A stretch of 57,435 nt of DNA, from contig PABA01000185.1 of NCBI GenBank assembly GCA_002699025.1, forward strand, positions 1-57,435. The letters are read 5' to 3'. The stretch's first letter is position 1, and each line of letters begins with the position of its first letter. Below the pieces are notes generated by a model that worked only from the letters and a program-made list of their open reading frames with translations, did not search any database and had not been told where the DNA came from. The position numbers were made by a program, and so were the translations under genes. This stretch comes from Sandaracinus sp. (GTDB lineage Bacteria > Myxococcota_A > Polyangia > Polyangiales > Houyiibacteriaceae). Of the stretch, positions 14,063-57,435 are shown piece after piece.

Positions 14063-14253
14063 CAGAGCTGAATCCTGCAGCCGGAACGAAGCGAAAGGGC
14101 TCTTCGCCCCGGCCGTCTCTCGCTCCTTCGCGCCGAGCCGCCCGGATCTCACAACCGATCGTCCCGCCCGGCTCGACGCGCATGGTCCGCGGGCAGCGCC
14201 CGCCTCTCGCGCCCGGTCGAGCGAGAGCGAACGGACCAGGACGCATGGGGGGC

Positions 14254-14348
14254 AGCTCCCTTGCTGGACGAGGGCTCCCTTGCAGGGCAGGAGCTCCCTT
14301 GCTGGGCAGGAGCTCCCTTGCTGGGCAGGAGCTCCCTTGCTGGGCAGG
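14254..14348. repeat. five 19-bp tandem repeats
   Basis: Exact 19-bp period, unit AGCTCCCTTGCTGGGCAGG, with copies starting at 14254, 14273, 14292, 14311 and 14330; the first two are diverged. The array is followed by the 10-bp palindrome GGCACGTGCC (14350-14359). The region 13931-14560 between the sigma operon and the next lipoprotein gene holds this array and no supportable gene. Confidence 0.85.
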
Positions 14349-14560
14349 AGGCACGTGCCCCCGGCGGCACGAACGGCGCTCGCCCCCGCGCGCCCCGACC
14401 AGCGCGTCGCGAGCTGCGTTCAGCTCCCCCACGCCGCGCCTCCCACCGTGATCCGTCGTTCACGGGGGCCCCACGGCGCGAGGCGCTGGACGGACGGACG
14501 CACGTCGGGCGCGCGAGAAGCCCGCGCGCCCGACGATGCGAGACGAAGAAGGAGCCGGGG

Positions 14561-27385: not shown

Positions 27386-27964
27386 TCAGTTGCGGATGCC
27401 GGTGACGAAGCCGTTGGTGAAGTAGACCTCGAAGCTGTTCACGCGGTTCCGCCAGTAGCGCCAGATGTCCCCCTCGAGGCTCGGCGTCTCGTGCTCGGGC
27501 GGGTAGCCGATGGCCATGATGACGCCCTGCTTGCTCATGCCCTGGTAGACCTGCCCCTGCTGGACGCCGGCCTGGTCCTCGGGGGAGAGCTGGGAGATGT
27601 CCGGGCAGCCGGTGCCGAAGTAGCGCTGCACGTGCGACTGAACGCCCGAGCGGGCGGAGCGGTGCATGATGTAGCGGTACCGACGGTGGCTGTTGAGGTC
27701 GCGGAAGGTGATCACGCGATCGGTGACCTCCTCGAGCTGCACCGGGGTGCAGATCGGGAGGAGCGCGCCCTGGGGCGGGGCCGAGTACATCACCGAGTGG
27801 ATGTGGTTCCGGCCGTCGGGGCGCATGTTCGTCAGCGTGTAGAGTTGCTCGCCCTGCGGGACGGCGTAGCGCTGACCGCCGCCGCCACAGGCGGGGAGCG
27901 CGGCGAGGGCGAGGAGGGCGGCGAGGACGAGGGAGAGCGGGGAGGGAAGTCGGTGCCAGTTCAT
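27386..27964 (-). CDS. lipoprotein with BamE/SmpA-like C-terminal domain
   Basis: 192 aa. Lipoprotein signal with lipobox LPAC (Cys26). Residues about 140-190 (GMSKQGVIMAIGYPPEHETP, then WRYWRNRVNSFEVYFTNGFV) follow the BamE/SmpA/OmlA pattern of a G-M/S-K..V..aiG.P motif, then W.Y and a terminal beta-strand pair. BamE is a lipoprotein of the outer-membrane protein assembly complex; here the domain is fused to an extra N-terminal region, so the role may differ. A sigma-54-like element lies 17 nt before the start codon (27980-27995). Confidence 0.8.
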   Translation of the reverse strand: MNWHRLPSPLSLVLAALLALAALPACGGGGQRYAVPQGEQLYTLTNMRPDGRNHIHSVMYSAPPQGALLPICTPVQLEEVTDRVITFRDLNSHRRYRYIMHRSARSGVQSHVQRYFGTGCPDISQLSPEDQAGVQQGQVYQGMSKQGVIMAIGYPPEHETPSLEGDIWRYWRNRVNSFEVYFTNGFVTGIRN

Positions 27965-27979
27965 CGCGCGTCGGAAGCT

Positions 27980-27995
27980 AGCATGGCACGTGCCA
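27980..27995 (-). promoter_or_regulatory. -24/-12 (sigma-54-like) promoter before the BamE-like lipoprotein
   Basis: On the minus strand TGGCACG-TGCC-ATGCT matches TGGCACG-N4-TTGCW with one mismatch. It starts with the 12-bp palindrome TGGCACGTGCCA (27984-27995). The C of the -12 GC is 17 nt before the ATG, implying a 5-nt leader. At 28026-28040, 31 bp upstream, GGGCC-GCGAT-TCCAC is a degenerate version of the GNGGC-N5-GCCNC element found in the 42-55 kb regulon. Confidence 0.5.
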
Positions 27996-28214
27996 CCCGG
28001 GCTCTTCCGGCCGATCCGACGCGCAGGGCCGCGATTCCACGTGAACTGACCTTCACGCGTCGGGCGCCGAAGCGCATCTGGGGGCGCCCCGCTCGGGGGA
28101 GACGCCGGGGGACCTCCGCGCATTCACGCGCCCTCCGCGAAGCCCGTGACCGACTCGTGACGGCCGGGGGCCGCGGGGTGACAGGCCGCAGCGCGCGTGC
28201 GAGAAACGGCGGCC

Positions 28215-40528: not shown

Positions 40529-41959
40529 TCAGCCGAGGCCGGCGGAGCGGAGCACGTCGTCCGAGCTCTGCTCGCGCTGGGCCTCGCGCTCGCGGGCCTT
40601 CTTGTCCTGCTTCTCCCAGCGCGCGAGCTTCCGGTAGAGCGTGCGCCGGTCGATGCCGAGCACCTTCGCCGCCTGCGTCTTGTTGCCGCCGACGACCTGC
40701 AGGACCTTGCGGACGAAGCGCCGCTCGAGCGTCTCCAGCGTCGGCAGCTCGGAGGGGTCCTGCGTGTCGACGAGCAAGCGCGAGCTCTCGTGCGTGCGCA
40801 CGCGCTCGGGCAGGTCGTCGGTCGTGATCTGCTCGAAGCGCGCGAGGGTGACGGCCCGCTCGATGCAGTTCTCGAGCTCGCGCACGTTGCCGGGCCAGTC
40901 GTAGGCGAGGAGGCGCTCGGCGGCCGGCTCGCTCAGGCCCTTCACGTCGCGGCCCATGCGCTCGGCGTTGTCCTCCACGAAGCGCTGGGCGAGGCGGAGG
41001 ATGTCGTGGCCGCGGGCGCGGAGCGGCGGCAGGTGCACGTTCACGACGTTGATCCGGTAGAAGAGATCCTCGCGGAAGCGATCCTCGGCGACGTCGTCCT
41101 CGAGGTCCCTATTGGTGGCCGCGATGATGCGCGTGTCGAAGGCGCGCTCCTGGCTCGAGCCGACCGGGCGCACCTTCCGCTCCTGCAGCGCGCGGAGGAG
41201 CTTGGCCTGCATCTCGGGCGCCATCTCGCCGATCTCGTCGAGGAAGAGGGTGCCGCCATCGGCCTCGATGAAGAGGCCCTCGCGGGAGCGCTTGGCGTCG
41301 GTGAAGGCGCCGCGCACGTGGCCGAAGAGCTCGCTCTCGAGGAGGTTCGCGGGCATCGCCGCGCAATTCACGGCGACGAAGCGACCCTCGCGGCCGCTCT
41401 GACGGTGGAGGGCGCGGGCGACGAGCTCCTTACCGGTGCCGCTCTCGCCGGTGACGAGGACCGTGGCGTCGCTGTCGCCGACGCGCTCGATGAGGTCGAA
41501 GACGCGGCGCATGGAGGGGCTGCGGCCGACCATGTCGAACTCGGCGACGGGGCCGTCGACCTCGCGGCGGAGGCGCTTGACCTCCTGGGAGAGGGCGCGG
41601 TGCTGGGTGGCGCGGCGGATGGCGGCGCGGAGCGGCTCGAGCTCGAGGGGCTTGGGGAGGAAGTCCCAGGCGCCGGCGCGGAGGGCGCCGATGGCGGCGT
41701 CCATGCTCGTGTAGCCGGTCATGACGATCACCGGCACGTCGGGGCGGATGTCGAGCACGCTCTGGCAGACTTCGAGGCCGTCGTCCTCGCCGATGCGCAG
41801 GTCGGTGAGCACGACGTCGAGCTGACCGAGGTTGCGGACGAAGCGCTCGGCCTCGGCCTGGGTGGTGGCGGTCTTGACGGTATGACCGTCCTTCTTCAGC
41901 GCGGCCTCGGCGAGGTCGCGGATCTCGGCTTCATCATCGACGACGAGGATGTGCGGCAA
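40529..41959 (-). CDS. NtrC-family sigma-54 response regulator
   Basis: 476 aa. Receiver domain 1-115 with the acidic pair in LVVDDEAE, phospho-acceptor Asp in VLTDLRIG and Thr/Lys at MTGYT and LPKPLE. The AAA+ domain has Walker A GESGTGKE, a variant sigma-54 loop GAFTDA (canonical GAFTGA) and Walker [11 protein letters not shown]. The Fis-type HTH is [17 protein letters not shown]. The start is a TTG at 41959, favoured by AAGGAG just upstream and by the receiver fold starting PHILVVDDE. No cognate histidine kinase adjoins; the nearest is the stressosome-linked kinase at 50.1-51.7 kb. It is the best candidate activator of the promoters described at 42-55 kb. Confidence 0.9.
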
Positions 41960-42040
41960 GGGGCTCCTTGTGTCCGGCTGGACGTGTGGGGGTCGGTGGG
42001 ATGCGGCGCGCTGGGGCGCCGCGGCTCGCCCCTCGAACCT

Positions 42041-42056
42041 TGCGAGCACTGTGCCA
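42041..42056 (-). promoter_or_regulatory. possible -24/-12 promoter of the NtrC-type gene
   Basis: Minus strand TGGCACA-GTGC-TCGCA matches the sigma-54 consensus with two mismatches and keeps both GG and GC. It lies 83 nt before the TTG start. The palindromic element at 42063 is only 7 bp upstream of it, too close for the usual spacing, so this promoter is less certain than the others. Confidence 0.35.
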
Positions 42057-42062
42057 CGCGTC

Positions 42063-42077
42063 GCGGCGTTCTGCCCC
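42063..42077. promoter_or_regulatory. activator-site candidate A (GNGGC-N5-GCCNC)
   Basis: GCGGC-GTTCT-GCCCC. It shares the 14-mer GGCGTTCTGCCCCA with sites at 42177 (next to the kinase promoter) and 54732 (stressosome promoter). It sits in the 289-bp divergent region between the NtrC-type gene and the kinase. The adjacent 14-bp palindrome CGGGCGATCGCCCG is at 42080-42093. Confidence 0.5.
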
Positions 42078-42174
42078 AACGGGCGATCGCCCGGGATTCC
42101 GGGGGGTTCGGCTGAAGATCATGGGCCGTGAGGCGACGGGCGAGGTAACCGGGGCGCGCGCCTCTGCCCCACCT

Positions 42175-42189
42175 GTGGCGTTCTGCCCC
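42175..42189 (+). promoter_or_regulatory. activator-site candidate B upstream of the kinase
   Basis: GTGGC-GTTCT-GCCCC, ending 31 bp before the kinase -24 element. A further partial copy, CTCTGCCCCA, lies at 42162-42171, 19 bp from the equivalent half of this site. Confidence 0.55.
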
Positions 42190-42219
42190 AGCCGATTGGC
42201 CGCGCGGGCTCGGCGGCGC

Positions 42220-42235
42220 TCGCACGACTCTTGCT
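42220..42235 (+). promoter_or_regulatory. -24/-12 promoter of the kinase gene
   Basis: TCGCACG-ACTC-TTGCT: perfect -12 part and one mismatch overall, though that mismatch falls in the normally invariant GG. The C of the -12 is 15 nt before the GTG at 42249, which supports that start codon. Confidence 0.5.
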
Positions 42236-42248
42236 CGTCCTCTCGGGC

Positions 42249-43121
42249 GTGGGACCACGCATCGAACCGCCCGAGGGGCTTCGCCTCGAAGGGCTGCTCG
42301 GCCGGGGCGCGCACGGCACCGTCTTCGCCGCGCGCTGCCCGCGGCGGGGTCCGCTCGCGCTGAAGCTCGGGCGGCCCGGGGACCCGCTCGCGCCCTTCCT
42401 CGCGGAGGCCCGCTGCATGGGCGCCGTGTCCCACCCGCGCGTCCCCCGTGTGGTCGACGTGAGCCGGACCGGGCGCGGGACCCCCTACCTGATGATGCAG
42501 CGCGCCCCCGGGCGGAGCCTGAGGCCGCTCTTGCCGCGCCTCTCGCGCCGCCGCGCGACCGCGCTCGTCGACGACCTCCTGGGCGTGCTGACCGAGGTCC
42601 ACGCCTCGGGCATCGTCCACTGCGACGTGAAGGCGAGCAACCTGCGCGTCGCCGAGGGCGAGGTCTGGCTGCTCGACTTCGGGATCGCGCGCCGAGGCGC
42701 CCGCCGCTGGACGCGGCAGGAGCGCGCGCGCGGCACACCGGCCTACATGGCGCCGGAGCAGCTCGAGGGCCGCCGCGTCGACGCGCGCACGGACCTCTAC
42801 GCCGTCGGCGTGCTGCTCTACCGCGCGTGGTTCGGCGTGCTGCCCTTCCCGCGCGAGGGCTTCGGCCTGCTGCGCCGAAAGCGGCGCGCGCTCTACGTTC
42901 CCCCGAGCATCCGCGACCCGCGCTTCGAGCCGGCGGACGACCTCTTCCGGCGCCTCCTCGCCGGGTCCGCCCGCGCGCGGCTCGCCAGCGCCCGAAAGGC
43001 GCGCGCGGCGCTCGCGACGATCCGCCGGCGCCTGCCTCGGACCATCCTGGCGTGCGCCCCCGATGGAGAACCGTCGGCGACCCGGCGCACGCGCCACACC
43101 CTGGAGACCCACCCCGCATGA
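42249..43121 (+). CDS. small Hanks-type Ser/Thr protein kinase
   Basis: 290 aa and almost only a catalytic domain: Gly loop LLGRGAHGTVFAA, Lys in ALKLGRP, catalytic loop HCDVKASN (HRD replaced by HCD), DFG in LLDFGIARRG, and APE as YMAPEQLEG. No membrane span. The HCD change removes the Arg that usually contacts a phosphorylated activation loop, so the kinase may not need loop phosphorylation. GTG 42249 is preferred over TTG 42231 because of the promoter spacing. It overlaps the following 55-aa gene by 4 bp and diverges from the NtrC-type regulator. Confidence 0.85.
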   Translation: MGPRIEPPEGLRLEGLLGRGAHGTVFAARCPRRGPLALKLGRPGDPLAPFLAEARCMGAVSHPRVPRVVDVSRTGRGTPYLMMQRAPGRSLRPLLPRLSRRRATALVDDLLGVLTEVHASGIVHCDVKASNLRVAEGEVWLLDFGIARRGARRWTRQERARGTPAYMAPEQLEGRRVDARTDLYAVGVLLYRAWFGVLPFPREGFGLLRRKRRALYVPPSIRDPRFEPADDLFRRLLAGSARARLASARKARAALATIRRRLPRTILACAPDGEPSATRRTRHTLETHPA

Positions 43122-43285
43122 GCTTCGACGACTCGATCCAGCAGCTTCCCGAACCCATCCGCGCCAAGGCGCGCGAGCTCTACGCCGAGCTCCGCGAGAA
43201 GGGGCTCGACCCTGCCGAGGCGGAGGAGCAGACGGTGAAGCAAGCACACAAGTGGATGGACGAGCGCGCGCCCAGCCGCGACTGA
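43118..43285 (+). CDS. 55-aa protein, possibly ChaB-like
   Basis: Translationally coupled (ATGA) to the kinase gene. The sequence is helical and charged: LPEPIRAKARELYAELREKG, then AEEQTVKQAHKWMDERA. The 'LP..I...A.ELY...' opening and the terminal A..W recall the small ChaB-like family, but the match is weak. As a kinase-coupled small protein it could be a substrate or adaptor. Confidence 0.6.
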   Translation: MSFDDSIQQLPEPIRAKARELYAELREKGLDPAEAEEQTVKQAHKWMDERAPSRD

Positions 43286-43330
43286 CCGCCGACGCGGCGC
43301 CGCTCGCGCGGCGCCACATCGGCGGTGGGG

Positions 43331-43604
43331 CGCTCGCTCCGCTCGCTGAGGGGGGACGCTCGCTCCGCTCGCTTTTCGGGGTCGGGGAACTGGGCCACGC
43401 CCGAGCGTCCGTCCTGCACGACGCTCCTTCGACCCTCGGCACCGCCGCTGGGGCTCGGGCTCGCGCTCGAGCCACCGCGCGGGCTCGGGTACGGGCTGTC
43501 GCTCGCGCTCGGGCGGGCTGTCGCTCGGGCTCGGGCTGTCGCTCGGACTCGGGCTGTCGCTCGGACTCGGGCTGTCGCTCGGACTCGGGCTGTTGCTCGC
43601 GCTC
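43331..43604. repeat. two short repeat arrays in the kinase-dps gap
   Basis: CGCTCGCTCCGCTCGCT occurs at 43331-43347 and 43357-43373. From 43515 to 43604 there are five units of 18 bp (GGGCTGTCGCTCGGACTC), with a diverged first copy at 43493. The gap 43286-43759 has no supported gene; reading frames across the array give only (A/V)-R-A-T peptides. Confidence 0.8.
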
Positions 43605-43759
43605 GGACCACGGCTCGCGCACCAGGCAGTCGCTCGCCCTCCCCCTCTCCGCTCTCCCAGTCCCGCGCGCCCCGGCCCGCGGGCGTCCCGACGGAACGAC
43701 GGCGCCCCCGCCGGCTTCGGCCAGCGGGAGCGCCGTCGTGCGTGCCCTCGTTCGGTGTC

Positions 43760-44095
43760 TCAGGTGCGGGGGGCCTCGATGCGCCACGCGAGGCGGCGCG
43801 AGTCCGGCCCGCCGCGGGGCTCTCCGGGGTAGCGGAGGAAGCCCCGGCCCTCGAGCTGCGCGACGAGCCGCTCGGCGCGGACGTCGGAGCAGCCGAGGTG
43901 CGCGGCCAGCGCGTCGCGGAACGCCGTGCGTCCGAGCACGTAGCCGCGCGGGGGACGCCCCTCGAAGCGCGCCTGGAGCGCGCCGGCGAGCTCGGCGAGA
44001 TCGAGCGGCGCGTCCTCCGGCGAGGCGTCCGCTCCCGCGCCCATCTCGACGCGGCGGCTCTCGACGAAGCGCGCGGGGGCGTCCTTCTCGCTCAC
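43760..44095 (-). CDS. small winged-helix-like protein downstream of dps
   Basis: 111 aa. The C-terminal half, TAFRDALAAHLGCSDVRAER then LVAQLEGRGFLRY, reads as a winged helix (helix, turn, recognition helix, wing). It aligns by eye with the 92-aa protein encoded at 44827 (SFAHQLVERLGISYKRARQL, then VRSLERGGYLR). It overlaps the dps stop by 4 bp, so the two are co-translated. It could bind DNA or regulate dps; an N-terminal acidic stretch precedes the fold. Confidence 0.7.
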   Translation of the reverse strand: MSEKDAPARFVESRRVEMGAGADASPEDAPLDLAELAGALQARFEGRPPRGYVLGRTAFRDALAAHLGCSDVRAERLVAQLEGRGFLRYPGEPRGGPDSRRLAWRIEAPRT

Positions 44096-44664
44096 GAGGC
44101 GGCCGCTCCGATGCGCGGCTTCGCGGCCGAGCCGTTGGCCGACTTCGGCTCGCGCTTCGCGTCCGCGGCGCTCTCGGCGGTGCCGGTCATGGACTGGGCC
44201 TGGAGCATCCAGGCCTGCTCCTCGAGGCCGGCGAGGATCTCGAGCAGGAGGTCCTCACTCGCCGGGTCGAGGTCGGCGAGACGCTCGGCGCGCTCGCGGA
44301 CGTGCTTGGCGGCGAGCAAGACGCGCTCGGCCATGGCCTCGGCCACCACCATGTCGGGCTGGAAGCCGCTCGGACACTGGGGCAGGCCGCTGTGGTCGCT
44401 GATGTACCCCGCCGTCCCGTCGGGCGCGACGCCGAGCGCCGTGCAGCGCTCCGCGAGGTCGTCGCTCCAGCCGCGGTAGGTGTCGACGAGCTCGTCGAGG
44501 AACTCGTGGATGCTCTGGAAGCGGGGACCGACGATGTTCCAGTGGAGCTGCTTGCCCTGGAGCGCGAGGTCGATCATCTCGGCCATCGAGGCGTGGAGCT
44601 CGACCACGACGGCGTCGCGGGTGGGGGTGGCGAGGGTGGTCTGAAAACGAGGGTTGGGTGTCAT
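44092..44664 (-). CDS. dps: Dps-family DNA-binding ferritin-like protein
   Basis: 190 aa. Ferroxidase motif spread over two subunits: His in KQLHWNIVGPRFQSIHEFLD, with the Asp/Glu of HEFLDELVD. Dps dodecamers store iron, remove peroxide and coat DNA in stress or stationary phase. A C-terminal tail of about 25 residues rich in Lys/Ala/Ser (after MTGTAESAAD) may provide DNA contact. The start at 44664 follows GGGAGGG. A -24/-12-like element ends 15 nt before the ATG. Confidence 0.92.
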   Translation of the reverse strand: MTPNPRFQTTLATPTRDAVVVELHASMAEMIDLALQGKQLHWNIVGPRFQSIHEFLDELVDTYRGWSDDLAERCTALGVAPDGTAGYISDHSGLPQCPSGFQPDMVVAEAMAERVLLAAKHVRERAERLADLDPASEDLLLEILAGLEEQAWMLQAQSMTGTAESAADAKREPKSANGSAAKPRIGAAAS

Positions 44665-44677
44665 GCCCTCCCTACGC

Positions 44678-44693
44678 TGCAACGCCCGATCCA
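44678..44693 (-). promoter_or_regulatory. -24/-12 promoter of dps
   Basis: Minus strand TGGATCG-GGCG-TTGCA: perfect -12, two mismatches in -24. The flanks (to GCGTAGGGAGGG) closely resemble those of the lipoprotein promoter at 47293-47308. The C of the -12 is 15 nt from the ATG. Confidence 0.5.
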
Positions 44694-44727
44694 GGTCGCC
44701 GCGCCGCTCCGCCGACCGCGCCCCACC

Positions 44728-44762
44728 GAGGCGCGATGCCTCGCTTCGGGCCGATTCGCCAC
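44728..44762. promoter_or_regulatory. activator-site candidates between dps and the divergent gene
   Basis: GAGGC-GCGAT-GCCTC (44728-44742) is a perfect 5-5-5 inverted repeat placed 35 bp upstream of the dps -24. GGGCC-GATTC-GCCAC (44748-44762) is a one-mismatch relative ending 34 bp before the -24 of the divergent winged-helix-like gene. Confidence 0.5.
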
Positions 44763-44795
44763 GACTCGTCCCCGCGCGTCTCGCGCCACGCGTGC

Positions 44796-44811
44796 TGGCA
44801 CGTGTTTCGCT
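44796..44811 (+). promoter_or_regulatory. -24/-12 promoter of the winged-helix-like gene
   Basis: TGGCACG-TGTT-TCGCT: perfect -24 and a one-mismatch -12. The C of the -12 is 17 nt before the ATG at 44827, the same distance as at 27964 and 47277. Confidence 0.55.
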
Positions 44812-44826
44812 GTTTCCTCGCGCGTC

Positions 44827-45105
44827 ATGGACGTCGAGTATCACCGCGCCGCCGACCCGCGGGTGGTGCACCGGCGCGGCCGCCTCGGCCTGCGCCGCTT
44901 CGCCGCGCTCCTCCAAGAGCGCTTCGGCGAGCACTTCCGCGGCGGCCGCCGCAAGGCCCGCTCCTCTTTCGCGCACCAGCTCGTCGAGCGCCTGGGCATC
45001 TCCTACAAGCGCGCGCGTCAGCTGGTCCGCAGCCTCGAACGGGGCGGCTACCTGCGCCCGGAGCGCCGCGGCGTTCGCATCGCGCGAGCGCCCACGAGGA
45101 GCTGA
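44827..45105 (+). CDS. small winged-helix-like basic protein
   Basis: 92 aa, strongly basic. A helix-turn-helix-like core (SSFAHQLVERLGISYKRARQ, then LVRSLERGGYLRPERRG) matches the paralogue downstream of dps. The ATG at 44827 is supported by the promoter position. The last 13-15 codons (PERRGVRIARAPTRS) are part of a DNA segment repeated five more times after the stop codon. It probably binds nucleic acid; partner and target are unknown. Confidence 0.7.
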   Translation: MDVEYHRAADPRVVHRRGRLGLRRFAALLQERFGEHFRGGRRKARSSFAHQLVERLGISYKRARQLVRSLERGGYLRPERRGVRIARAPTRS

Positions 45106-45370
45106 AGGCGCCCGGAGCGCCGCGGCGTTCGCATCGCGCGAGCGCCTACGAGGAGCTGAGCGCCCACGAAGAGCCGAGGGCGCCTCGAGCGTCGGGGCGT
45201 TCGCATCGCGCGTGCGCCTACGAGGAGCTGAGCGCCCACGGCCGAGGGCGCCTGGAGCGTCGTGGCGTTCGCATCGCGCGTGCGCCCACGAAGAGCCGAG
45301 GGCGCCTCGAGCGTCGGGGCGTTCGCATCGCGCGGGCGCCCGGAGCACCGCGGCGTTCGCATCGCGCGGG
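45065..45370. repeat. amplified copies of a gene 3' end
   Basis: GCGTTCGCATCGCGCG starts at 45071 (inside the 44827 gene), 45125, 45197, 45265, 45319 and 45353. Each copy is flanked by GGAGCGCCG- and CCCACGAGGAGCTGAG-like sequence in variable amounts (spacings 54, 72, 68, 54, 34). The repeats include the stop codon, so the extra copies are non-coding. The 45106-45548 gap has no other content recognised. Confidence 0.8.
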
Positions 45371-45548
45371 CGCCGACGAGCGGAGAACGCCCGCCATCGC
45401 GGCGGAGCTCGAAGGCCCGGGGCGCGGCCCCAGCGCCTGCGATCCGTCGCGCACCTCGAGGCCGCTCCCGAACGCGGACGAGGCCGCGGAGCATCCTCCC
45501 CGGCCTCGTCGTCCTCGCGTTGCCCGTCTCGCCGGCAGGGCGCCGCCC

Positions 45549-46715
45549 TCAGTAGCGCAGCGTCGCGGCGATGGGCTGGTCCGCGGGCATCTGCTCCGGG
45601 TCGAGGACGTGCACCATCGCGCCCATCTCCCAGGCCTTCGTCGCCGCCTCGCCGAAGAGCTCGCGCTCGCTCCGCGGAGGGCTCTCGTCGAAGCGCACCT
45701 CGCGCGTCCCGGGCTCCCAGCGCCCGAAGCGCCTCGCCCCGCGCGTCAGGAAGAAGTGCGCGACGCGCCCGTCCATGGCCGCTCGCACGACCTCCGCGGC
45801 GTCCGTCGCCACGGCGTCCCGCGGCGCCTCCTCGAGCCGCCGGCGCGGCTCGTCGCCTTCGGCCTGCGCGTACGCCTCCCAGGCTTCGCGCCGGAGCGCC
45901 TCGACGCTCTCGAAGGCGCTCGGCTCCTTCGCGACGACGGCGACGATGCGATCGGCGAGGTGGCTCGCGTCCCGGTAGAGGGCGGCGAGGTGCTCCTGGC
46001 CGACCAGCACGATCGGACGCGCGTCGTCGCCGAGGGCGGCCTTCACGCGGCGGTCGAGCTCGCGGAAGTACTTGCGGGCCTCGCGCTTGCGCTCCTCGGG
46101 CGCGCCCTCGCCGTGGCCGTGGAAGGCGGCCGCGCTCGAGGGGTCCCCGGGGCGCGGGGAGGTGCTGTGCGCGTTGAGCTGGGGCTCGCTCAGCTCGTGG
46201 CCGAGCACGTCCTCGAGGGGCCGGTCGATGTCGGCCTCCTCCGGGACGATGCCCCAGCGCGTCGCGAGGTGGAGGGCGCCACCGCCGAGCCCGATCGCGA
46301 GCACGTGGTAGCTCTCCCCGGGCACGTAGCGAAGGAGCGGCGCGACGTGGAAGCGGGCGCCCACGAGCGCGAGATCCTCGGTGGGCTCGGGCAGCACGAT
46401 CACGCGCGTGAAGCAGCCCCCCGCGCCGCTTTCGTCCCGCGCGACGAAGGCCGCGACGGAGGCCTCGGGGCGCGTGCCGAGCGCCTCCCGCAGGGGCGTC
46501 TCGAGCGCGTCCAGGAGCGACGCGGCGCCGGGCGTCCCGACGTCCTCGAGCGCCTCCCGGGCGCGCTCCATGGCGGCGCGCGCCACCAGCCGGGGCGCCT
46601 CGAGGGGCTCGGGCGGGGGCGCGACGTAGAGCGAGAGGCAGGGGCCGGGCGCGTGGTGCGCCACGAGCTCCCGGAGGTGGTTCTCGGTGACGGGGTGGAG
46701 GCGGCGTTCGAACAT
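45549..46715 (-). CDS. baeRF-family (eRF1-like) protein
   Basis: 388 aa. Matches the bacterial archaeo-eukaryotic release-factor-like families (baeRF3/7 type): the central VPGESYHVLAIGLGGGALHL block, then ERKREARKYFRELDRRVKAA, PIVLVGQEHLAALYRDASHL, and the C-terminal Rossmann-like block with MVHVLDPEQMPADQPIAATL. These proteins resemble eRF1/Pelota and are suspected to act on stalled ribosomes or in stress, though function is unproven. Met at 46715 (MFERRLHP) is chosen because a -24/-12-like element ends 15 nt before it; ATG 46745 would lie on top of the promoter. Confidence 0.8.
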   Translation of the reverse strand: MFERRLHPVTENHLRELVAHHAPGPCLSLYVAPPPEPLEAPRLVARAAMERAREALEDVGTPGAASLLDALETPLREALGTRPEASVAAFVARDESGAGGCFTRVIVLPEPTEDLALVGARFHVAPLLRYVPGESYHVLAIGLGGGALHLATRWGIVPEEADIDRPLEDVLGHELSEPQLNAHSTSPRPGDPSSAAAFHGHGEGAPEERKREARKYFRELDRRVKAALGDDARPIVLVGQEHLAALYRDASHLADRIVAVVAKEPSAFESVEALRREAWEAYAQAEGDEPRRRLEEAPRDAVATDAAEVVRAAMDGRVAHFFLTRGARRFGRWEPGTREVRFDESPPRSERELFGEAATKAWEMGAMVHVLDPEQMPADQPIAATLRY

Positions 46716-46728
46716 CGTCGTGGAAGGG

Positions 46729-46744
46729 TGCACGCCGCGTTCCA
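46729..46744 (-). promoter_or_regulatory. -24/-12 promoter of the baeRF gene
   Basis: Minus strand TGGAACG-CGGC-GTGCA, with two mismatches and both GG and GC kept. The C of the -12 is 15 nt from the ATG at 46715. Confidence 0.5.
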
Positions 46745-46777
46745 CGGCGGAGGGGGGCGCGGGCGAGGGGAGGTGTC

Positions 46778-46792
46778 GTGGCAGCTCGCCTC
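46778..46792. promoter_or_regulatory. activator-site candidate upstream of the baeRF gene
   Basis: GTGGC-AGCTC-GCCTC fits GNGGC-N5-GCCNC at every fixed position and lies 34 bp upstream of the -24 element. Confidence 0.5.
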
Positions 46793-46800
46793 GACGCGTC

Positions 46801-46828
46801 GACGGCGCCCCGCTCTCGGGACGCCGTC
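46801..46828. terminator. hairpin after the 46852 lipoprotein gene
   Basis: GACGGCG (46801-46807) and CGCCGTC (46822-46828) with a 14-nt loop, just beyond the lipoprotein stop on the minus strand. No T run. Confidence 0.35.
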
Positions 46829-46851
46829 GGGGGGCTCGGGGGATGGGGGGC

Positions 46852-47277
46852 TCAGCGCCGCTCGGGGCGAGGCCAGGGACCCGCCTGGCCGAGCTCTTCC
46901 TCGGTGAAGACGGTCCACGCGGGGACCTGGTCGACGACCGTGCAGTTCGTGTTGCCGTCGGGGTCGACGCACTCGCCGGTGGTCGGGCAGCAGAACTCGC
47001 CGGGCTCGCAGCGCTCGACGCCGCAGGCGCTCAGGTCCTCGGAGCCGCCGAGGCCGGGGCCGGGGTCGAGGGGGCCGACGCGCGCGTCGATGGGGAGGCC
47101 GGCGTCGTAGGCGCCGTCGTCGACCTCACCGGGCAGGGCGGGCGCGGGCTCATCGAGCGCGGGGGGCACGGTGGCGCCCGCGAGCGCCGTCCGGCCGGGC
47201 TCCGACGCGTCCGCCGCGCATCCGGCGAGGGCGAGGAGGGAGGAAGCGAAGAGGGCGATGGAAGTCGATGTGCGCAT
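46852..47277 (-). CDS. small lipoprotein with Cys-rich C-terminal motif
   Basis: 141 aa. Signal peptide with lipobox LAGC (Cys20), a Pro/Asp-rich spacer, then CGVERCEPGEFCCPTTGECV, a short disulfide-rich knot (pattern C-x4-C-x5-CC-x5-C) seen repeatedly in myxobacterial surface lipoproteins, followed by another Cys (NCTVV). A strong GGAGGGGGG ribosome-binding site precedes the ATG. A sigma-54-like element and activator-site candidate lie directly upstream. Confidence 0.85.
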   Translation of the reverse strand: MRTSTSIALFASSLLALAGCAADASEPGRTALAGATVPPALDEPAPALPGEVDDGAYDAGLPIDARVGPLDPGPGLGGSEDLSACGVERCEPGEFCCPTTGECVDPDGNTNCTVVDQVPAWTVFTEEELGQAGPWPRPERR

Positions 47278-47292
47278 GTCCCCCCTCCACGG

Positions 47293-47308
47293 TGCAGCGC
47301 CCGTTCCA
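47293..47308 (-). promoter_or_regulatory. -24/-12 promoter of the 46852 lipoprotein gene
   Basis: Minus strand TGGAACG-GGCG-CTGCA. The C of the -12 is 17 nt from the ATG. The surrounding 30 bp (CTGGAWCGGGCGYTGCA, then SCGTRGRGRGGG) are nearly the same as in front of dps. Confidence 0.5.
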
Positions 47309-47342
47309 GCGCCGGGGCCGGGGGCGCGGGGCCGGAGCCCGC

Positions 47343-47357
47343 GAGGCGCCCTGCCTC
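47343..47357. promoter_or_regulatory. activator-site candidate upstream of the 46852 gene
   Basis: GAGGC-GCCCT-GCCTC, a perfect 5-5-5 inverted repeat 35 bp upstream of the -24. A weaker second copy, CCGGC-GCCCT-GCCCC, follows at 47363-47377, 20 bp on. Confidence 0.5.
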
Positions 47358-47393
47358 GTGGCCCGGCGCCCTGCCCCATCAACCCACCGGGCG

Positions 47394-47705
47394 TCATTCG
47401 CTCGGATCGGCGGGCACGTGCTCCTCGGGGGGAGGCAGCGGCTCGGTGCGCTCGGGCGCGACGATGGCCTCCTCGATGGTCTCCGGATCGGCCTCCACGT
47501 CGACGGCCAGCTCGGCCTGCTTCTCGGCGACCTCCTCGGCGATCTCCTCGTCGAGGGGACCCCGATCGAGCGCCTCGGCGCGGGCTTCGGCCGTCTCCTC
47601 GGCGAGGTCGCCGGCCACGTCGGCGGCGTCGTCCTCGCAGCCGAGGGCGAGCGAGAGGGCGACGCCGAGGATGAAGAAGGGGCGCAAGGTATTCGTTCGG
47701 TTCAT
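47394..47705 (-). CDS. small acidic lipoprotein
   Basis: 103 aa. Lipobox LGC (Cys23, in SLALGCEDD), then a highly acidic helical segment rich in Glu/Ala (EETAEARAEALDRGPLDEEI). No family is recognised; the composition suggests an extended or coiled anchor in the envelope. It is divergent from the VTT-amidoligase gene, and their putative -24/-12 promoters lie back to back. Confidence 0.75.
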   Translation of the reverse strand: MNRTNTLRPFFILGVALSLALGCEDDAADVAGDLAEETAEARAEALDRGPLDEEIAEEVAEKQAELAVDVEADPETIEEAIVAPERTEPLPPPEEHVPADPSE

Positions 47706-47718
47706 GGGGGAGCGGTCG

Positions 47719-47734
47719 TGCAAGCGAGGTTCCA
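47719..47734 (-). promoter_or_regulatory. -24/-12 promoter of the acidic lipoprotein gene
   Basis: Minus strand TGGAACC-TCGC-TTGCA: perfect -12, two mismatches in -24. The C of the -12 is 15 nt from the ATG at 47705. Only a half-site (GCGGC, 47770-47774) is seen at the activator-site distance. Confidence 0.45.
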
Positions 47735-47770
47735 TCCGCCTGGCGCTCTCGAGGGGCGCGACGCCGATCG

Positions 47771-47786
47771 CGGCACGGTAAGTGCA
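47771..47786 (+). promoter_or_regulatory. -24/-12 promoter of the VTT-amidoligase gene
   Basis: CGGCACG-GTAA-GTGCA, two mismatches. The C of the -12 is 15 nt before the ATG at 47800, which favours that start over the GTG at 47782. No full activator site is evident. Confidence 0.4.
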
Positions 47787-54744: not shown

Positions 54745-54845
54745 AGGTGGGTCATGGGGGCCCCGGACGCCCGCGGCGAGGTCGACGGGAACGCGAGGTC
54801 GATGCCGATGCGCCGCGGCGGGGCGACCACCGACGGGGCGAACAC

Positions 54846-54950
54846 ACCGGCAGGGCGTAGGCCGGCGAAGCGAACGCCGGCGAAGCGAACGCCGGCAGGG
54901 CGGACGCCGGCGAAGCGAACGCCGGCAGGGCGGAGGCCAGCGAAGCGAAC
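54846..54950. repeat. seven 15-bp tandem repeats
   Basis: Unit GCCGGCGAAGCGAAC, copies from 54846 at exact 15-bp steps, alternating between GAAGCGAAC and CAGGGCGGA endings; the last copy has CCAG in place of CCGG. It lies between the stressosome promoter and the next gene (gap 54532-54962), where I support no other gene. Confidence 0.8.
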
Positions 54951-54962
54951 GCCAGCCGGTCC

Positions 54963-55634
54963 TCAGCGCACCATCACGGTGGTGCTCCGGCCCCGACCTC
55001 GGCCGCGGCGACGGCGATCGTCGTCGTCGTCCGTGCGGACGCGCGTTCGCCCGCGACCCCGGCGCATGGTCGTGGTGCGCGTGCGGGTGGTGCCGTTGCG
55101 GCGGCGCACCGTGGTCCGCGTGCGGGTCGTGCCGTCGCGACGCCGCGTCGTGGTGCTGCGCCGGCGCGTGGTGGTGCCGCGGTTCGTCCGCACGGTCGTG
55201 CCCCGCCGGCGCGTCGTCGTGCCCCGGTTCGTCCGCACGGTCGTGCCCCGCCGGCGCGTCGTCGTGCCCCGGTTCGTCCGCACGCGCGTCGTGCCGCGGC
55301 GGGAGCGCACCCGCACCGTGCCCCGGTCGCGCCAGCGCCCCTGCCGGTAGACCCAGCCTCGTCCGCGCCGCTCCCAGCGCCCGCGCACCCAGACCCGCCC
55401 GGGCCGCGGCCGCAGCCAGCGCCCCTCCACCCAGACGTAGCGCCCGCCGCGATGCGCCCAGTGACCGTGCGCCCAGACCGCGCCGGCGAAGGGCGGCGGC
55501 CCCGGGTTCACGACGCGCGGGGGCGGGGGCTCCGCGTAGACGACGGTCGCGGTCGGGCGCGTCGCGCGGACGCTGGCCGAGCAGCCGGCGGCCACCATGG
55601 AGAGGGCGAGGATCGAAGGAACGAAGGCACGCAT
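54963..55634 (-). CDS. lipoprotein with WxGxW repeats and an Arg/Thr-rich repeat tail
   Basis: 223 aa. Lipobox AAGC (Cys18). Residues about 52-105 contain four or five YxWxxGxW-type repeats (WAHGHW, WVEGRWLRPRPG, WVRGRW, YRQGRW), a motif family of unknown function in envelope proteins. The last 120 residues are almost only Arg, Thr, Gly and Asn, with a 15-residue unit (RTNRGTTTRRRGTTV) repeated three times, encoded by 45-bp DNA repeats at about 55170-55300. The high positive charge outside the cell suggests binding to an anionic polymer (LPS, DNA or polysaccharide). Confidence 0.75.
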   Translation of the reverse strand: MRAFVPSILALSMVAAGCSASVRATRPTATVVYAEPPPPRVVNPGPPPFAGAVWAHGHWAHRGGRYVWVEGRWLRPRPGRVWVRGRWERRGRGWVYRQGRWRDRGTVRVRSRRGTTRVRTNRGTTTRRRGTTVRTNRGTTTRRRGTTVRTNRGTTTRRRSTTTRRRDGTTRTRTTVRRRNGTTRTRTTTMRRGRGRTRVRTDDDDDRRRRGRGRGRSTTVMVR

Positions 55635-57299: not shown

Positions 57300-57331
57300 G
57301 CGCCGGAGCTCCTGGGGAGGGGCTCCGGCGC
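57300..57331 (+). terminator. hairpin after the GNAT-nitrilase gene
   Basis: GCGCCGGAGC (57300-57309) and GCTCCGGCGC (57322-57331), a perfect 10-bp stem with a 12-nt loop, directly after the stop codon. No T run. Confidence 0.5.
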
Positions 57332-57435
57332 GTTCGAACACGGGCGCGTTCGAACACGGGCGCGTTCGAACACGGGCGCGTTCGAACACGGGCGCGTTCG
57401 AACACGGGCGCGTTCGAACACGGGCGCACGTTCGA
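57332..57435. repeat. 16-bp tandem repeats at the window edge
   Basis: GTTCGAACACGGGCGC, at least six copies with exact 16-bp period (57332, 57348, 57364, 57380, 57396, 57412) and a diverged partial copy at 57430. Each holds the palindrome TTCGAA. The array runs off the end of the window, so its full length is unknown. Confidence 0.85.

Follow-up and report, generated by a model that had tools for sequence, protein, structure and literature searches.

The gene encoding a BamE-like lipoprotein in the window, i.e. the whole stretch of 57,435 nt analyzed here, is probably transcribed from a sigma-54 promoter that nearly abuts its ATG codon and responds to an activator bound at an upstream dyad, and it would belong to an envelope regulon distinct from the block of similar promoters located 14 kb away. 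The window corresponds to contig C196 in a genome of 9.24 Mb and 238 contigs; its GC content is 74%. The features on which this reading is based are listed in Table 1. Taken jointly, the predicted promoter, its distance to the start codon, the length of its spacer and the presence of the dyad are far from chance.

Table 1. Predicted features of the lipoprotein gene, its upstream region and the NtrC-type block.
Feature	Position	Strand	Remarks
Lipoprotein gene	27386-27964	-	Coding 27389-27964, stop to 27386; ATG at 27964; 192 aa
Predicted leader	27965-27969	-	4-5 nt, deduced from the usual promoter-start distances
Extended -10-like element TGCTAGCTT	27983-27975	-	Matches TGnTAnnnT; TGC common with the -12 element
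-24/-12 (sigma-54-type) element TGGCACGTGCCATGCT	27995-27980	-	One mismatch to TGGCAC-N5-TTGCW; 15 nt before the ATG
Enhancer-like perfect dyad CGTGAAGGTCAGTTCACG (CGTGAA-N6-TTCACG)	28057-28040	-	0 mismatches; 44 bp upstream of -24
NtrC-type response regulator	40529-41965	-	Response_reg, Sigma54_activat and HTH_8 domains
Block motif TGGGGCAGAACGCC	42065-42078	-	Different enhancer candidate; absent upstream of 27995
Block motif TGGGGCAGGGCGCC	47365-47378	-	Upstream of the 47308 promoter

The GG and GC cores of TGGCACGTGCCATGCT are 10 bp apart within TGGCAC-N5-TTGCW. The element had been presented in the initial annotation as the best -24/-12 match; its single mismatch was confirmed, but six sites in the window have one mismatch to that pattern, and the site at 47734-47719 has no mismatch if TGGMAC is allowed. 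Taking the C of the -12 GC (27981) and the A of the ATG as end points, we obtained exactly the reported spacing of 17 nt, which was said to be common with the block and is indeed found at two block-side sites (44796 and 47293), but four others have 15 nt. Loose matching, with up to three mismatches, yielded 120 matches in the window versus 119.43 expected; a -24/-12 match by itself is therefore weak proof, and loose matches were not used as evidence.

A more restrictive pattern, TGGMAC-N6-TGCW followed by ATG after 12-16 nt, identified 20 distinct sites in the genome versus one match for the reversed pattern, which is an imperfect control, spacer variation being a better one. The sites are located at the starts of open reading frames, and 10 of the 20 genes encode lipoproteins while four more encode proteins with signal peptides, as judged by eye. 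The spacer was examined among the matches listed (150 of 368, the reversed control summing to 138 over all spacers), from which 14 (G019 and G024) and four repeats, two of them due to a second ATG and two to identical copies on different contigs, were left out, giving 132 rows from 12 genomes of the family. Spacers N4, N5, N6, N7 and N8 were represented by 12, 7, 98, 8 and 8 rows, respectively; one row fits two spacers and was entered under both, and the counts therefore total 133. N6, the spacing required by sigma-54, was the sole enriched spacer in the family among the matches listed. In the 98 N6 rows among these matches, the element was separated from the ATG by 12 nt in 45, 13 nt in 24, 14 nt in six, 15 nt in 15 and 16 nt in eight. 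The sigma-54 N-terminal domain (PF00309) is found once in the genome.

Transcription from sigma-54 promoters starts 12 nt after the -12 GC, and leaders of about 2-6 nt would be expected for this near-ATG class, a layout that is noteworthy. Usual sigma-54 promoters differ from it, as the -12 element is here only 12-16 nt from the ATG, by the pattern searched; at many of the dyad-linked sites described below, this distance is longer. Because the lipoprotein gene is a member of this genome-wide class of near-start-codon promoters, its promoter is not a local repeat effect. This part of the earlier argument holds, but a common regulon with the block is not supported. In the open-access literature, we found nothing joining the terms leaderless, sigma54 and Deltaproteobacteria, and no report on leaderless transcription starts in Myxococcus xanthus addresses this topic by title. 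A transcript-start study in Sinorhizobium may already describe short-leader sigma-54 transcripts.

A degenerate activator dyad had been claimed 31 bp upstream of the promoter. It could not be reproduced: within 200 bp upstream of 27995, the best match to the block motif TGGGGCAGNNCGCC has four mismatches (shuffle P 0.99), and within the nearest 60 bp it has five, and the motif was rejected as the activator site of this gene. The perfect dyad CGTGAAGGTCAGTTCACG is instead located at the edge of the interval singled out previously, and the arrangement proposed for the regulon, in which a dyad precedes the -24/-12 promoter of a gene for an exported protein, is found here. Exact copies of the dyad number 35 in 13 of the 33 family genomes (three reversed-control sites), and 24 copies with at most one mismatch are present in this genome (one control site). 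A second dyad in the window, with one mismatch (14447-14464), has no good -24/-12 site nearby. The dyad was not found in the open-access literature in any of four spellings.

The linkage between dyads and promoters was analyzed by searching 160 bp on both sides of each of the 35 family dyads for the best match to TGGCAC-N6-TGCW retaining GG and GC, and by comparison with shuffled sequences. Exact matches were found near seven dyads (shuffle mean 0.02), matches with at most one mismatch near 16 (0.37) and with at most two near 23 (3.2), whereas at three mismatches the excess was small (26 versus 13.8). When incorrect spacers (N3, N4, N5, N7, N8 and N9) were used at up to two mismatches, only 2, 5, 3, 4, 3 and 0 of the 35 dyads, respectively, were linked. 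The distance from the end of the dyad to the -24 element ranged from 29 to 117 bp in the 23 linked cases. These include the lipoprotein gene and two of its orthologues, without which the linkage is 20/32, and they are not independent, several groups being one gene in related genomes. In this genome, five of the 24 dyads with at most one mismatch have a promoter at the same tolerance (0.20 expected). An additional motif upstream of the -24 element, TGATYT, was recognized at no more than three of 21 loci, which represent 20 distinct promoters, and was therefore dropped.

The 23 family genes behind linked promoters were sorted by inspection. Three encode the BamE-like lipoprotein, six encode barrel-type proteins in which AQC is close to the N-terminus of the mature form (L095, L105, L109, L122, L125 and L128), and four encode cysteine-rich lipoproteins (L094, L107, L108 and L121); small barrel-like proteins (L124 and L130), CAP-like proteins (L129 and L133), a barrel-like pair (L127 and L131), a lipoprotein pair (L104 and L132) and two further targets (L106 and L123) make up the others. 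The one-mismatch dyads of this genome precede the same gene groups (L142, L147, L152 and L153). A Pfam run on ten target proteins matched OMP_b-brl in L095 above the cut-off and in L152 just below it, Dickkopf_N and DUF7107 in L094, L121 and L147, and CAP in L153; L104, L106, L127 and L142 had no match. The common theme of the dyad targets is the cell envelope, and their role may be outer-membrane homeostasis. Sigma-54 has been described as a controller of the bacterial exterior (PMC3162934), a theme that resembles ours, as it places surface structures and lipoproteins under the control of sigma-54; the part of that article available to us deals with broad gene associations across phyla, and the CGTGAA dyad and its target set do not appear in it.

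The search was extended to 144 genomes of the order, including the 33 of the family. The dyad was found in 58 genomes, 45 of them outside the family, where the excess is weaker than within it (71 dyads in 111 genomes versus 13 control sites). At 17 extra-family dyad loci, a promoter with at most one mismatch was observed in eight (0.10 expected) and with at most two mismatches in 11 (1.52 expected). Seven of the eight promoters at one mismatch or fewer precede lipoproteins, as judged by eye; four of the proteins begin with CPVW or CPIY, two of these loci (L167 and L169) being from one genus. The dyad delimits a regulon that can be tested across several families of one large-genome order; it ties sigma-54 to the make-up of the outer membrane through recognizable target families, and it could be used as a bait sequence for the activator.

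Sigma-54 promoters need an activator, and from the sequences we infer sigma-54 binding, an activator at the dyad and the start site. An enhancer-binding protein would most likely bind the CGTGAA-N6-TTCACG dyad, reach the sigma-54 RNA polymerase at TGGCAC-N6-TGCT by DNA looping and open the promoter with ATP, and the resulting mRNA would have a leader of roughly 4-5 nt. A conserved envelope regulon comprising lipoproteins, outer-membrane barrels and CAP proteins would include the lipoprotein gene among its targets, and the inducing signal is perhaps the state of the envelope or of outer-membrane proteins. The canonical GG/GC spacing, the dyad 29-117 bp upstream and the sigma-54 domain encoded in the genome are shared with sigma-54 promoters that have upstream enhancers. 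The TyrR/PhhR box is TGTAAA-N6-TTTACA, and PhhR-type proteins activate sigma-54 promoters. The dyad resembles this box in arm length, in its 6-nt spacer and in its GTRAA/TTYAC arms, but differs from it in having CGTGAA arms and envelope-protein targets. The TyrR-type domain HTH_50 was discarded as a marker of the activator, as it is present in 33 of the 33 family genomes and singles out none. A motif scan for enhancer-binding proteins near the targets found none in 20 stretches of 7-20 kb. To our knowledge, most sigma-54 activators of Myxococcota have no known targets. Many such enhancer-binding proteins are described in this phylum, together with an enrichment of cell-wall and secretion functions in Myxococcia, in the part of PMC12316311 available to us, where rpoN is also reported to be essential in Myxococcus xanthus.

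The analysis was continued with relatives of the lipoprotein gene. Its predicted product (P0001) alone recovered no locus in a scan of genome contigs, and a scan with the alignment recovered 11. Relatives of the gene were present in 11 named records, which are labelled Myxococcota, Myxococcales or Polyangiaceae (seven), Deltaproteobacteria (two), Brevundimonas (one, UBA2388) and Hahellaceae (one). Nine of the 33 family genomes hold the gene, and these, the lipoprotein gene included, together with UBA2388 (L083) represent the ten close orthologues scored; L090 (anchor not found) and L047-L051 were left out, and the distant homologue L091, which has neither the -24/-12 element nor the dyad, was scored outside the ten. 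TGGCAC-N6-TGCW with 0-2 mismatches is present in 8 of 10 close orthologues, and is absent in G005 and G003; C replaces T at its first base in five of these eight. The dyad is exact in G000, G007 and G014 (44, 72 and 92 bp from the -24 element) and has one mismatch in G015 and UBA2388 (43 bp in both), whereas it has at least three mismatches in the other five (G010, G006, G005, G009 and G003).

The -24/-12 element overlaps a putative extended -10 element of the sigma-70 type, TGCTAGCTT. Of the eight orthologues with a retained -24/-12 element, six have TAnnnT at this register, with varying middle bases, and this motif is more constant than expected of a pure sigma-54 promoter. It is found in 2 of the 98 sigma-54-type sites of the family among the matches listed, one of them being the present site, and in none of the 20 other dyad-linked promoters, and is therefore particular to this gene. 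Sigma-70 transcription starts 7 nt after the -10 hexamer, and the starts predicted for the sigma-54 and sigma-70 promoters are 27969 and 27968. We propose, as the simplest reading, that both promoters exist and overlap. They would be interlocked through the shared TGC with starts within one nucleotide; basal transcription would depend on sigma-70, and induced transcription on sigma-54 with the activator bound at the dyad. We hold this arrangement tentatively, at somewhat below even chances; it adds to the best explanation and does not oppose it. Both sets of conserved columns are observed in G000, G015, UBA2388, G010, G007 and G014; only the -24/-12 element is retained in G006 and G009, and only a -10-like one in G005 and G003. 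Against it, no clear -35 element can be seen by eye, and a family scan for GGCAC-N4-8-TGCTAnnnT near an ATG gave 12 N6 rows among 27 distinct rows (N4 six, N5 six, N7 two and N8 one), four of the 12 being the lipoprotein gene and its orthologues; with so mild an N6 excess, interlocking was rejected as a general class. A wider proposal, in which one sigma-54 activator would run an outer-membrane homeostasis regulon, a task of sigma-E-type factors elsewhere, partly through near-leaderless transcripts and with an interlocked sigma-70 promoter using the same start base at the BamE-like gene, is offered more speculatively, with perhaps one chance in three of being correct.

No -24/-12 match at two mismatches or fewer was found within 160 bp of 12 of the 35 family dyads, which would fit a dyad bound by a repressor or another regulator instead of an enhancer-binding protein. 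Five of these dyads are near cysteine-rich lipoproteins (L096-L099 and L101), two precede small exported proteins judged similar by eye (L093 and L134), and the remaining five are L100, L102, L103, L120 and L126; L093 and L134 perhaps represent another way of using the dyad. We regard a repressor or other regulator as unlikely, since the linked dyads end at a distance from -24 that is the usual enhancer range and sigma-54 promoters depend on activation.

The possibility that the extended -10 element alone drives the gene, the likeness to -24/-12 being partly due to chance and TGC serving also as the -12 core, is about as improbable or slightly more so. It would be in line with 59 TGCTAnnnT-N4-12-ATG sites in the genome, 27983-27975 among them, versus 26 for the reversed control, with the constancy of TAnnnT described above, and with the orthologous sequences TGCTAGGTT (G005) and CGCTAAACT (G003), which both lack a -24 element. 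However, in the eight orthologues, which were picked for their match, both G residues of the -24 element are conserved in all eight, as is the next C, and the next A in seven, whereas G occupies those two positions in only 14 and 10 of 30 TGCTAnnnT sites; moreover, G006 has TGGCACGCGCCGTGCA, without TAnnnT, and the dyad is associated with -24/-12 sites of the correct spacing. The 59 sites (one at 40192-40173) suggest in their own right that near-leaderless sigma-70 genes are common in this genome.

A lipobox can be recognized by eye in the translation of the 192-aa product, for which Pfam gave no match at an E-value cut-off of 0.1 or 5. Weak matches to PF04355 (BamE) were obtained for 8 of 11 members of the protein family (E up to 5, best E 0.0085), P0001 not being among them. 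The structure predicted for P0001 (mean pLDDT 85.6) comprises an SH3-like N-terminal part (approximately residues 36-120) and a C-terminal part aligning to BamE: residues 135-192 aligned to Neisseria gonorrhoeae BamE 5wam_B with Z 5.9 and rmsd 2.9 over 56 residues (27% identity), and to 7tsz_E with Z 5.8 and rmsd 2.7 over 55 residues (26%). SH3 domains made up most of the VIA structure matches of the model, BamE being represented by three of the 50 entries listed, and Foldseek found no match in the PDB at E 0.001 or better. Since the Z scores do not reach 8 and the Foldseek search was negative at that threshold, we use "BamE-like", which seems a fair label for the modelled product, rather than plain "BamE", which goes further. 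The lipobox and the C-terminal alignment resemble BamE, the outer-membrane protein assembly lipoprotein, but the product carries the additional SH3-like part and P0001 itself has no Pfam match.

The block of -24/-12-type sites is compact (40529-47786) and surrounds the NtrC-type regulator. Its genes encode protein-kinase-like (by eye), ferritin-like and baeRF family 3 proteins, two small lipoproteins (by eye) and an amidoligase. In the genome, TGGGGCAGNNCGCC was found 15 times versus four times for the reversed control, four of the 15 being in the window (42065, 42177, 47365 and 54732). At nine block-side promoters it is exact in four and has two or three mismatches in five, and CGTGAA-N6-TTCACG is present in none of the nine (4-5 mismatches). 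The link of TGGGGCAGNNCGCC to the regulator is an assumption. The lipoprotein gene, which has the dyad and lacks TGGGGCAGNNCGCC, shows the reverse, and is therefore probably part of a separate envelope regulon; of the earlier view that it is a distant member of the block's promoter class, the class is indeed shared, but the candidate activator site differs. That the NtrC-type regulator also activates the lipoprotein gene is highly improbable, for despite the common promoter class and similar ATG distance, the block motif is missing at this gene and the dyad at the block. Two small proteins encoded in the block (43760-44044 and 44826-45105), for which Pfam gave no match, resemble each other by eye, and the second comes after the -24/-12 site at 44796. 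The window also contains short direct or tandem repeats, at 14246-14350, 43456-43607, 45054-45428, 54829-54974 and 57311-57422.
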